From: an uncultured Flavobacteriales bacterium
GTDB taxonomy: Bacteria > Bacteroidota > Bacteroidia > Flavobacteriales_D > Crocinitomicaceae
NCBI GenBank assembly: GCA_913020765.1
Contig: CAJWAO010000017.1
Location: 1-33,643 of the forward strand
DNA: 33,643 nt
Direction: 5' to 3'
The stretch's first letter is position 1, and each line of letters begins with the position of its first letter. Below, piece by piece: positions 25,332 to 29,086 of the stretch. The notes below the pieces were generated by a model. It was not told the DNA's origin. It was given only the letters and a program-made list of their open reading frames with translations, and did no database searches. Both the position numbers and the translations under genes were made by a program.

Positions 25332-26173
25332 TGTTTGATTTTTGGATCATATTGACAGCTTGCATCATAGCGATAAACTCAAGTTTGCTAGGCAGTTTTT
25401 TGGTACTCAGAAAAATGAGTTTAATTGGTGACGCCCTATCCCACTCAGTTTTACCAGGAATAGTAATTGCATTTCTGATATCAGGAGAGATTAATTCTTT
25501 TTGGATGCTTATAGGTGCTAGTGTCTTTGGGGTTTTTGCCATTCTTATCATCGATTGGTTAAACCGCTTTGGAGGATTTGGCAAGGATAGTGCCATTGGA
25601 ATTATTTATACATTGCTATTCGCAATTGGAATAATACTCATCACATCAATTGCAAAAAATTCAGATATAGATGTTGACTGTGTGCTCTTCGGTGACATAA
25701 ATACTGTTCCGCTTCTTCCAAAGATTCTAGCCATCCCTGTTCCAACATTTAACTTATTAATAATTGCTGTTGTTGTTATACTAACGTTACTATTGGGTTT
25801 AAAAGGTTTTAAGATCAGCACCTTTGATAAAAATCATGCGCAAACCTTGGGGGTTTCAATCACATTTTGGAACTATCTGCTCCTCGGACTTGCAAGCGTT
25901 TCAACAGTATTTAGTTTCGACAGTGTTGGTGCGATCATGGTTATCGGTTTAATCGTCATACCTCCTTCTTTTGCAAATATTATCACAAGAAAGCTATCTC
26001 GATTTCTGATAATTTCTGCATCATTTGCAGTATCTAGTTGCATTCTTGGCCATTGCATAGCCATTTATTTGGATATACCTACAGTTCCAACCATTGGTTT
26101 TTTGATGGGTTTAATTTTAATTTTAACACTTATTTTTCAAACCTTCAACAAAAACTTGCAACAGCATACATGA
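25331..26173 (+). CDS. Metal-ion ABC transporter permease 2 (ABC-3 family, TroD-like)
   Basis: A 280-residue permease, homologous to its upstream neighbour. It has about eight membrane segments, the motif VLRKMSLIGDALSHSVLPGIV (about 25-45) and DSVGAIMVIGLIVIPPSFANI near 200. Two different permease genes after the ATPase is the TroABCD/MntABCD layout of Mn/Zn/Fe importers. It is the last gene: a 6-bp hairpin follows at 26180-26195 and about 250 bases separate it from the next gene. Confidence 0.93.
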   Translation: MFDFWIILTACIIAINSSLLGSFLVLRKMSLIGDALSHSVLPGIVIAFLISGEINSFWMLIGASVFGVFAILIIDWLNRFGGFGKDSAIGIIYTLLFAIGIILITSIAKNSDIDVDCVLFGDINTVPLLPKILAIPVPTFNLLIIAVVVILTLLLGLKGFKISTFDKNHAQTLGVSITFWNYLLLGLASVSTVFSFDSVGAIMVIGLIVIPPSFANIITRKLSRFLIISASFAVSSCILGHCIAIYLDIPTVPTIGFLMGLILILTLIFQTFNKNLQQHT

Positions 26174-26179
26174 GTAAAA

Positions 26180-26200
26180 ATCCTTAAACAAGGATGATTA
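26180..26200 (+). terminator. Weak terminator candidate after the metal importer operon
   Basis: A six-base-pair stem ATCCTT (26180-26185) and AAGGAT (26190-26195) with an AAAC loop, 6 bases after the permease stop. The downstream tract is only GATTATTAAG, so this is a weak terminator at best. The rest of 26196-26419 has no gene that I can support. Confidence 0.3.
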
Positions 26201-26419
26201 TTAAGTAGAACAAGTAAATCCATTCATGATGCAAATAAAGTTAAAACCCAAGATTGAATTAGGAACATTAAAATCAAATCAAAAGACGCTGAATTAGCTC
26301 AAATGAGGACATCTATAATGCGTAGACTTTTTAAAGCGTCTCATGATGTTGTTAATGTTCTGTTAATTTTTTTTTAAGGAAAAGTCTTCTTCGTATTTTG
26401 GTGTAACAAAAAATTTAAA

Positions 26420-26863
26420 ATGAAAAAATTATTTATCCTATCCATTCTATTCATTGGTGCTCTAGCCATGAATGTTAACGCACAAGCTGAAGTTCAAAGT
26501 GGTGCAAAAATCGAGTTCACCAAAGAGGTGCATGACTACGGTAAAATCAAGTACAACGGAGATCCGTATTGTATATTTGAATTTAAAAACACAGGAGATC
26601 AGCCCTTGATTATCTCAAATTCAAAGGGTTCTTGTGGATGTACCGTTCCAACATGGCCAAAAGAACCGATTGCTCCGGGCGCGACAGGGTCGATTAAAGT
26701 TAAGTATGATACGAAAAGACCAGGACCGATCAATAAGAGCGTGACCATTACTTCTAATGCAGTTAATGCCGCTACAAAAGTTTTAAGAATTAAGGGAGAG
26801 GTCGGTCAAGCACCAAAAAGTGGCGCACCGGTTAATAGTTCAGGGGCTCCGGCAAAAATGTAA
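26420..26863 (+). CDS. Exported DUF1573-domain protein (first of tandem pair)
   Basis: A 147-residue protein with a signal peptide (about 1-21, ending NVNAQA). The DUF1573 domain covers about 28-130, with the family pattern EVHDYGKIKYNGD, FEFKNTGDQPLIISNSKGSCGCTVP and IKVKYDTKRPGPINKSVTI. This is an Ig-like fold common in exported Bacteroidota proteins, with no established function. The Cys-Gly-Cys in SCGCTVP is conserved in the family. The C-terminal tail is Ala/Pro/Ser-rich. A TATTTTG, one base short of a standard -7 box, lies 18 bases upstream of the ATG. A strong terminator begins 31 bases after its stop, inside the next gene. Confidence 0.9.
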   Translation: MKKLFILSILFIGALAMNVNAQAEVQSGAKIEFTKEVHDYGKIKYNGDPYCIFEFKNTGDQPLIISNSKGSCGCTVPTWPKEPIAPGATGSIKVKYDTKRPGPINKSVTITSNAVNAATKVLRIKGEVGQAPKSGAPVNSSGAPAKM

Positions 26864-26864
26864 G

Positions 26865-27260
26865 TTGAGAACCACAATTCTGCTATTCATATTTAAAACC
26901 GCCATTGTCATTGGACAATCGGCGGTTTTTTCTGTAAAATATAAAACGATAAAATTCCCACCAACAAAAGAAGGTGAGGTGCTTAAGTTTAGCTACCAGG
27001 TAAAAAATACAGGTAAGGCTCCTTTAGAAATATACTCAGCAGATACAGAATGCTCATGTACCGATGTTATCCTTCCAGCTGATAAAATTCTCCCGGGGCA
27101 ATTTGGGATAATTCAAGTGGTTTTCGATACCAAAGGCAAATACTATTTCCAAAATAGAATCATATACTTGAATACCAATTCCCGGAGAAGAAGAGAACTC
27201 GTAAGATTTAAAGTTTTTATCGAACCTTCACCCGAACGAGAGTTAGAAAAAAATCCTTAG
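26865..27260 (+). CDS. Exported DUF1573-like protein (second of tandem pair), TTG start
   Basis: About 131 residues from a TTG at 26865, one base after the stop of the first DUF1573 gene. This start gives a proper signal peptide (MRTTILLFIFKTAIVIGQS). A GTG at 26820 in frame would prepend a non-hydrophobic stretch and overlap the first gene. The mature part repeats the DUF1573 pattern: VKYKTIKFPPTKEGEVL, YQVKNTGKAPLEIYSADTEC, SCTDV and VVFDTKGKYYFQNRI. It is therefore a diverged paralogue of its neighbour. Codons 11-23 form a strong intrinsic-terminator hairpin, so expression probably depends on readthrough. Its end overlaps the convergent GxGYxYP gene by 4 bases. Confidence 0.75.
   Translation: MRTTILLFIFKTAIVIGQSAVFSVKYKTIKFPPTKEGEVLKFSYQVKNTGKAPLEIYSADTECSCTDVILPADKILPGQFGIIQVVFDTKGKYYFQNRIIYLNTNSRRRRELVRFKVFIEPSPERELEKNP
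26895..26931 (+). terminator. Strong intrinsic terminator inside the signal-peptide codons of the second DUF1573 gene
   Basis: The left arm AAAACCGCCATTGTC (26895-26909), loop ATTG, and right arm GACAAT plus GGCGGTTTT (26914-26929, one bulged C at 26920) form 15 base pairs. The stem ends in a T-run (26926-26931). It is placed as the terminator of the first DUF1573 gene, yet remains fully open in the frame of the second gene. Confidence 0.8.
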
Positions 27261-29086
27261 TCATATTTAAAAACTTTTAAGGCTTTATTTTCGTCTGGCG
27301 TGATAAAGTGCAGCAGATAAGCACCGTCTCGAAGTCCATGTGTATACAAATTTAAAATCCAACCATCTAGGGTTTCTATTTTTTCTAACTCGATGGGGAC
27401 GGATTTGCCGCTCATATCTTCAAGAGAAACAATAAAGTCGTCAGAAAAATAATCTTGAACTCTCAATTGTATTGCCTCATGAAATGGATTCGGAAAGGCC
27501 TCCAAACTCAATTGATTCTGAAATTGAGGTGCGCAAATTGACTTCCTAATTAAAGCAATAAATTCATCAGGTGCCACAACACGAACCCCTTCATCAAGCA
27601 GGTCATTAACATACAACAAACTATCCACCGAATTCGACCAAGCGTGCACAGCAACTAAAGTATATCCTTCAACAGAATATGGGTCTTTACGCGCATTATT
27701 TAGTTTGTGTGCCAAACTTTCACCAGTCTCAAAACCACCCCAGAGATTATATTTTGCGGATACGATTGGCTTTAAACCATAACAATCCATACTTCCTTTC
27801 ATTCTGCTATAATTAGAATAATCATAATAGAACAACCCATCCACCTGTTCTTGCTTAAGGTATTCTTTTAATTCGGGTTGGTAGATAGAATCATTATATG
27901 CATTACCCAGTATATTTACAATACGCAGGTCAGACTTTTCAAGGTATCCATTCATTAATGCGCAAGAGGCTTCGAGCTCAGGAAATAATTCTGGAAAATG
28001 ATACGTGTACCCTGACGGACCAGCAACAAAATAATCTTTACCTGAATTGGTTGAAGCGGCCATCGAATATATTTTAGCCATAACGGTAGGTGCAACCTCA
28101 GAAAGAGATGGAGGAATTGTCCAGCCAATATCCATTAACCCTCTATTTTCTGAACCAAACCAACGACTGTCCTCTGCAAATAAATTGAGCATCCATTGAA
28201 TATTATCACCATCAGACATTAAAAAACAAACCGTATGCGTATTTTCTTCAATTTCTGCTATCGCGGGGCCAACTTGCTGCTTAGTTTGTGCATTAAAATT
28301 TGTAAGTGTGGAAATATTGAACCCCCAATCAGCAGGATGCACTCCAATTGAATATTCAGAGGCTTTCGCCACTGTTTGATACTCATCATCGCCCCATCCA
28401 AATAGAACAGAATTAGGCTCCATATGAGCAAAGGCATTTTCAGTTGTGGTGCTGTGAATATCGTCATATACATGCAGGGCATTGGAAAGGATGGAATAAT
28501 CTCCAAGAAATAAACATTTATCTTCTCTTTGGTAGGTAATAATTCGTTCATTCATCAAGGCAGCATAATTATCTATCACCCACTGCTCATCTTTATCTCG
28601 GACATCTAATATTTGAGTATATCCTTTGCTCTCAATTAAATCTTGCAACTCCGGGGTTACTGCCAGCGCATTAAAGGGGCCACATAATGAATTGGCTACA
28701 TTGCTGGAGTTATCATTCAAATTACATAGAATATAACCGTATACATCCTGGGGTATCAAGGTGAGCGCAGTATCAATATTGCCGTCCATTTCATATGAAA
28801 CATGTACGCTATATTCTTCCTGCAAATCTTGAATCCAAATGGAGCTCCCACTACCCTTATCTCTGTATATTTTAGGTTTCAATTTAGCACACAATCCCTG
28901 AATACTTTGTAAGAGAAGAAGCTCTGAATGTGAAAACAATTCATCGCTAAAAACAAAAAGTGTATCCGGCTGCACACTTGAAGGATAAGGACTATTCTCA
29001 ATCCTATGAATTATAGATTGACCAAAACAATTGAATCCAATCTGTAAAATCGATACCAATAAAATCAATGACTTGAGTAAATTCAA
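27257..29086 (-). CDS. T9SS-exported GxGYxYP-family protein (possible glycoside hydrolase)
   Basis: A 609-residue protein starting at a TTG codon at 29084-29086. A stop lies just upstream in frame and no ATG precedes the signal peptide (about 1-22), so the TTG is well supported. The central part matches the GxGYxYP family: CFLMSDGDNIQWMLNL (around Asp292-Gly-Asp294), GLMDIGWTIPPSLSEVAP and AGPSGYTYHFP (355-365, where the usual motif appears slightly altered). Members are put forward as carbohydrate-active enzymes, but this is not firmly established. The last 80 residues (from LEAFPNPF, 528) form a type A T9SS sorting domain, so the protein should cross the outer membrane and be anchored or released. 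The rny gene is upstream on the same strand. Confidence 0.82.
   Translation of the reverse strand: MNLLKSLILLVSILQIGFNCFGQSIIHRIENSPYPSSVQPDTLFVFSDELFSHSELLLLQSIQGLCAKLKPKIYRDKGSGSSIWIQDLQEEYSVHVSYEMDGNIDTALTLIPQDVYGYILCNLNDNSSNVANSLCGPFNALAVTPELQDLIESKGYTQILDVRDKDEQWVIDNYAALMNERIITYQREDKCLFLGDYSILSNALHVYDDIHSTTTENAFAHMEPNSVLFGWGDDEYQTVAKASEYSIGVHPADWGFNISTLTNFNAQTKQQVGPAIAEIEENTHTVCFLMSDGDNIQWMLNLFAEDSRWFGSENRGLMDIGWTIPPSLSEVAPTVMAKIYSMAASTNSGKDYFVAGPSGYTYHFPELFPELEASCALMNGYLEKSDLRIVNILGNAYNDSIYQPELKEYLKQEQVDGLFYYDYSNYSRMKGSMDCYGLKPIVSAKYNLWGGFETGESLAHKLNNARKDPYSVEGYTLVAVHAWSNSVDSLLYVNDLLDEGVRVVAPDEFIALIRKSICAPQFQNQLSLEAFPNPFHEAIQLRVQDYFSDDFIVSLEDMSGKSVPIELEKIETLDGWILNLYTHGLRDGAYLLHFITPDENKALKVFKYD

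Follow-up and report, generated by a model that had tools for sequence, protein, structure and literature searches.

In an uncultured Flavobacteriales bacterium, the putative transcription terminator of a secreted DUF1573 protein gene (gene A) was found to lie in frame within the signal-peptide codons of the adjacent DUF1573 gene (gene B), and the same overlap recurred widely among relatives. With a probability of roughly three in four, we consider that the terminator of A also attenuates B, and that B is expressed by read-through from the promoter of A. The window, i.e., the whole stretch of 33,643 nucleotides analyzed here, contains the following features.

26420..26863, plus strand: gene A, secreted DUF1573 protein of 147 aa, first of the pair (open reading frame; PF07610, 118.3 bits)
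26865..27260, plus strand: gene B, DUF1573 protein of 131 aa with a TTG start (open reading frame; PF07610, 65.4 bits)
26864..26894, plus strand: 31-nt spacer from the stop of A to the hairpin, encoding the beginning of the B signal peptide and the greater part of its hydrophobic core
26895..26929, plus strand: predicted terminator hairpin of A, read in the B frame as codons 11-22 (KTAIVIGQSAVF) (fold, covariation, synonymous-codon test)
26926..26931, plus strand: T-run of the terminator (sequence), the first four T's of which also pair with AAAA at 26895-26898

The stop codon of A (TAA, 26861-26863) is followed one base later by the TTG of B (26865-26867), in agreement with the initial annotation, and the list of open reading frames also offers a longer GTG start for B at 26820. 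The B protein is 95% identical to its nearest database record, and the nearest named relatives of the window are uncultured marine Flavobacteriales/Crocinitomicaceae genomes. A PDB sequence search with the B profile gave no match, and in the accessible parts of the literature searched DUF1573 was a mere table entry where looked up. At 27257-27260, the stop of B overlaps that of a convergent GxGYxYP gene (27257-29086, minus strand), and by eye there is no clear terminator for B itself at this end. Considering the TTG start in the window's genus, the lack of a promoter box, the absence of B from many relatives and the decayed copies seen, B might be regarded as unexpressed or decaying, with the overlap an accident of that decay. 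This reading is quite improbable, however, as B showed a dN of 0.024 against a dS of 0.313 with its nearest relative, low dN at saturated synonymous sites with other relatives, and residues invariant across 20 aligned rows, and as the pair is found across the class.

The hairpin consists of a 5' arm (26895-26909), a loop (26910-26913) and a 3' arm (26914-26929) with a bulged C at 26920. Folding of the RNA from 26885 to 26940 gave -20.1 kcal/mol against a mean of -6.9 kcal/mol for shuffled sequences (z = -5.67; none of 200 shuffles as good). Thus, as expected of an intrinsic terminator, a stable GC-containing stem-loop stands just 3' of gene A, 31 bases past its stop, where the terminator of A had been anticipated, and a run of six T's directly follows the stem. 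As had also been claimed, codons 11-23 of B encode KTAIVIGQSAVFS, codon 11 being 26895-26897. The 15-bp stem and the six T's of the initial annotation are each present, but they are not additive, because four T's (26926-26929) were counted twice; the element has either 11 pairs with six T's or 15 pairs with two T's. A fold-based scan of 433.6 kb of the window's genome (threshold, at most -14 kcal/mol, with four or more T's among the 8 bases that follow) returned 80 hairpins, four of which fell in the first 120 nt of an open reading frame on the same strand, and the window hairpin was the most stable of these four. A simple consensus terminator scan yielded 11 sites compared with 11.2 in shuffles and did not list the window hairpin, probably because of its bulge, and Rfam gave no match at E<=1 within 26000-27600. 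Together with the conservation described below, the window hairpin is a real, conserved structure of the terminator type, at which transcripts would be predicted to end.

A profile built from 20 B proteins (alignment A1) was used to search 299 genomes of the order, and 133 B orthologues were obtained at E<=8.3e-35, the next DUF1573 matches following at about 1e-26. All 133 loci were read and scanned from the stop of A onward, three of them lacking an A near enough to scan, and the hairpin was located within the signal-peptide codons of B in 123. The corresponding motif, N/K-S/T-A..Q-x-A-E/V-F, is strongly conserved in B. In eleven loci (L110, L116, L117, L120, L129, L133, L148, L149, L158, L161 and L163) the Q has been lost and NSA..AEF or SSA..AEF kept, so that the pairing outlasts the usual cleavage-site residue. 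Both the hairpin pairing and the downstream frame, the conservation of which in relatives, with compensatory changes, the initial annotation had pointed to as informative, were thus found to be maintained. In L095, the distance from the A stop to the profile start is 107 nt, and an in-frame ATG near the A stop would add a 34-residue N-terminal extension before the B signal peptide. At L215:9049-9076 (minus strand), the earliest possible start of a 1440-nt open reading frame is followed 33 nt later by a compact hairpin with a T-run, and this start may be mis-set.

The selection acting on the hairpin was assessed by redrawing its codons synonymously 1000 times per locus with the codon usage of each locus (122 loci). 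In 103 of these loci, no more than 4 of 1000 redrawn versions matched the real hairpin in stability. Over the whole test, mean energies were -20.5 kcal/mol for the real hairpins and -8.2 kcal/mol for the redrawn ones; in the other 19 loci at least 5 of 1000 were as stable, the worst case being 98 of 1000 (L160, NSAWALAQAEF). Between the window and its relative G026, the synonymous sites of the mature part of B are near saturation (0.75), and the 36 nucleotides of the hairpin differ at only two positions: a base of the loop, and a base whose change turns the loop-closing C-G pair into U-G. In the covariation test (107 aligned rows, 16 pairs, 500 shuffles and slid controls), 90.9% of the cells were paired versus 76.8% in shuffles, and 222 cells carried double changes versus 64.3 in shuffles, a count reached in none of the 500 shuffles and compared with 31-85 in the slid controls. 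Double changes occurred in 12 of the 16 pairs; for instance, columns 10 and 28, both of them codon third positions, formed CG in 64 rows, UA in 19, AU in 15 and GC in 2, with 7 rows unpaired. Likewise, TCC..GCG has become TCT..GCA in L115 and L155, with both sides changed. Alignment A2 carries the window row with a shift of two bases, and the core of this row duplicates L036.

The effect of the pairing extended to the protein. Among the 123 loci (one duplicate row, L095, having been removed from 124; for the same reason a set of 120 sequences stands for 119 loci), the residue pair facing each other across the stem was S..E/D in 95, T..V in 24, S..V in 4 and T..E/D in none, with Ser TCC accompanying Glu/Asp GAN and Thr ACC accompanying Val GTN. 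Judging from these comparisons, the pairing is under selection beyond the protein, and base-pairing rules appear to fix part of the amino-acid sequence of B. An amino-acid motif conserved for its own sake, with the hairpin as a by-product, would fit the strong conservation of the motif and its partial resemblance to a signal-peptidase region. It is nevertheless extremely improbable, given the synonymous-codon test and the third-position covariation; moreover, the swaps between S/E and T/V follow base pairing, B lacks the motif where A does not adjoin it, and the motif stays while Q is lost (e.g., L110 and L116). A protein-only explanation was accordingly rejected, as contradicted by the codon and covariation tests.

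The position of the hairpin followed gene A. When the stop of A lay at most 40 nt before the start of B, the hairpin was inside B in all 120 loci, including L050, placed in this group, the A of which reads GSRGCT; at distances of 41-130 nt it was inside B in 3 of 8 loci, and where A did not adjoin B, in none of 5. In the five spaced loci without an embedded hairpin, the terminator was located in the gap between A and B. Two of these (L140 and L150) keep the CCGCC..GGCGG hairpin in the gap beside a relic of the former signal peptide (FAIIIIAL), and their B carries a new, different signal peptide; the gaps of the other three (L075, L094 and L100) contain an unrelated stem. Moreover, in 30 genomes sampled from the 166 of the order without a listed B, a hairpin-plus-T terminator followed A in every case (29 by scan and L183 by eye). 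The 20 sampled genomes of the same genus had unrelated intergenic stems after A, and 8 of the 10 from other genera of the family kept the CCGC..GCGG core with the start or frame of B lost, or B gone altogether. Thus, the hairpin was kept in L194, in which the start of B has changed from ATG to ATT, in L190 with the fossil LNSASGFAQ*AEFLF, in L193 with B cut short, and in L186 with B broken or fossil. Past the broken B near L194 there is another sequence resembling A, which is interrupted by in-frame stops (G225:C18:9393-9755).

A broken downstream frame with a persisting hairpin had been named in the initial annotation as an outcome that would refute its proposal. This outcome does occur in the above four loci; what it shows is that the hairpin serves A with or without B, as do the loci in which B is lost or displaced, and attenuation of B is still compatible with it. 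On these grounds the hairpin is a conserved intrinsic terminator of A, with termination itself predicted. The 9 nt past the GC core contained on average 6.0 T's in the 123 embedded loci versus 7.4 in the B-less ones, with a p value of 4e-8 to be taken as a guide only because the loci are related; coding for B thus apparently costs the terminator part of its T-run. Intrinsic terminator hairpins commonly protect 3' ends, and the position at the end of the signal peptide would suit a pause. The hairpin might therefore chiefly serve the RNA 3' end or the mRNA stability of A, or pause ribosomes for the export of B, rather than terminate transcription. We regard this as unlikely, since T-runs stand 3' of the stem and contain more T's where the hairpin does not encode protein, and, as to pausing, since the hairpin stays where B is broken and, in other lineages, precedes the signal peptide or falls in codons of the mature part.

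The A-B pair was also detected in other families of the class, in searches that covered 296 and 396 of its genomes. Seventy class loci were read, and 39 outside the order possessed A, a hairpin and B, with the terminator embedded in 24 and intergenic in 15. The other 31 comprised one member of the order (L267), 14 loci with no A upstream, 15 with an A-like sequence upstream and no hairpin, many of these sequences looking like other DUF1573 genes, and one weak match (L303). The stems of the 24 embedded terminators and the peptides they encode were mostly unrelated to those of the window: KNP..GIF before the signal peptide (13 loci, in all of which the start codon of B overlaps the end of A by 8-11 nt), IPY..CGI in the signal-peptide core (5 loci), KAGExLxF in the mature part of B (2 loci), as well as APVFHCRG, TAIALIICSVAV and KTLLFAGF, with L220 (SA..AD) resembling the hairpin type of the window. 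In the synonymous-codon test, all 24 gave at most 6 of 1000 versions as stable. Nine loci (L245, L248, L260, L266, L274, L275, L282, L283 and L298) have an in-frame ATG, GTG or TTG within 31 nt past the hairpin, so that a start of B downstream of the hairpin is possible by sequence in those nine. A tree of A plus B, made by a quick method with 21 of 72 inner branches under 80, required at least seven changes between the embedded and intergenic states. Repeated embedding would be the simplest reading, the tree alone being no proof of separate origins, and an old hairpin that slid instead may account for the same pattern.

Promoter-like sequences were distributed unequally between the two genes. 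In a scan for one sigma motif only, the flavobacterial sigma-A box TAnnTTTG (described in the portion of PMC9723704 available), the 250 nt preceding A contained the box in 82 of 123 loci, with a peak at -30 to -60, and none of the 123 had it upstream of B; B thus has no evident promoter, as the initial annotation had remarked. An upstream -33 element accompanied the A promoters in only 12 of 123 loci by the pattern used. In the window itself, TATTTTG at 26394-26400 upstream of A is one base short of the box, and no exact match occurs there. With a box upstream of A and none before B, B most likely depends on the promoter of A and read-through. From the A stop to the B start, the median gap is 4 nt; of 122 loci, 93 have a gap of 10 nt or less and 26 one of 11-25 nt. 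The hairpin starts about 33 nt past the start of B. Short stop-start gaps allow re-initiation to couple translation, and gaps of 11-25 nt exceed the tolerance for efficient re-initiation in the species tested, as far as the available text of the source describes (PMC10666635).

These features are consistent with a scheme in which transcripts would start at the promoter of A and mostly end at the T-run, and a minority would read through and carry B. The terminator would thereby act as an attenuator holding B low relative to A, and B would be translated by ribosomes re-initiating after A, as the close spacing suggests. Because B starts right at the stop of A, its frame crosses the terminator, and the last part of the signal peptide is encoded by the hairpin; the need for both a short gap and a terminator may have forced the latter into the codons of B. 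Termination may be weak in the S..E type, whose T-run is partly paired with the upstream A's. The arrangement probably keeps the output of B low relative to that of A; we infer termination, its efficiency, the A:B ratio and the translational coupling from sequence.

Alternatively, a ribosome finishing A and starting B could invade the 5' arm and prevent termination, in which case the synthesis of B would require translation to keep up with RNA polymerase; such relief could also add to read-through. The median gap of 4 nt and a hairpin some 33 nt past the B start, clear of a ribosome paused at the stop of A and reachable by one translating B, are in its favor, as are the start codons that, in one other family, overlap the end of A in all 13 loci, and the growth-rate-dependent anti-termination described, in the text available, for the frd terminator of Escherichia coli, the attenuator of ampC (PMC6045580). 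However, the pair persists in the 15 loci whose terminator is wholly upstream of the B start, where ribosomes on B would be unable to exert such relief, and loci with a dead B retain the same hairpin. The persistence of intergenic versions in other lineages suggests that relief by ribosomes on B is at most an addition, and we consider it less likely than not. Of the two mechanisms put forward in the initial annotation, read-through, perhaps by a fixed fraction of polymerases, is tentatively favored. More tentatively still than attenuation by read-through, a repeatedly evolved device could be envisaged throughout the class Bacteroidia, in which a translationally coupled DUF1573 pair carries a terminator in the leader codons of B, translating ribosomes gate the polymerase, and the terminator dictates the signal peptide, with residue covariation arising from RNA pairing instead of contacts within the protein.

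The A-B junction thus provides a well-conserved case of a transcription terminator and a protein-coding sequence sharing bases. Since the signal peptide would be shaped by RNA pairing, the apparent conservation and coevolution of its residues (S-E and T-V) would mislead analyses of protein contacts or signal peptides. The embedded, intergenic and fossil versions, together with the loci that have lost B, also form a natural series for studying the competition between ribosome and terminator where genes join, in a group in which such cases have seldom been studied. Our literature search found no paper on a terminator conserved inside signal-peptide codons.

Several known systems nevertheless resemble the present one in part. 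The frd-ampC attenuator of E. coli lies in an untranslated leader, whereas the terminator here is inside the codons of B. In the frd-ampC system, as described in the accessible text, the terminator of the upstream gene heads the downstream gene, as it does here, and limits it, as is proposed here (PMC6045580). Unlike B, which has no promoter box before it, ampC possesses its own promoter within the last frd gene. In nlpD1-penA of Burkholderia pseudomallei, the upstream terminator is the attenuator of the downstream gene, the two genes are co-transcribed, and no promoter precedes penA in the wild type, according to the available part of the report (PMC6045580); B similarly lacks a promoter box, and A and B would be co-transcribed under the scheme above. 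The same source places TERM 264 in untranslated sequence, 25-73 nt ahead of the start codon of penA, unlike the arrangement here (PMC6045580). Indeed, the terminator did not lie in an untranslated leader in 123 of the 133 loci of the order, and did so in 15 loci elsewhere.

In clostridial ABC-importer operons, terminators behind SBP genes are described as giving high upstream and low downstream expression, to which the A-B pair may be analogous, and these internal terminators, like the S..E type, have lower U content and partly paired U-tracts; in contrast to the present hairpin, they are intergenic and untranslated (PMC9045158, the part available). Transcript ends within reading frames, as predicted here, occur in E. 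coli as ORF-internal 3' ends, which differ in being regulatory or sRNA-generating and within single genes, and the accessible portion of that report describes no neighbor's terminator conserved in signal-peptide codons (PMC7815308). Compared with the known upstream-terminator attenuators, what is new in the DUF1573 pair is a predicted terminator that resides in conserved codons and apparently shapes the protein that they encode.
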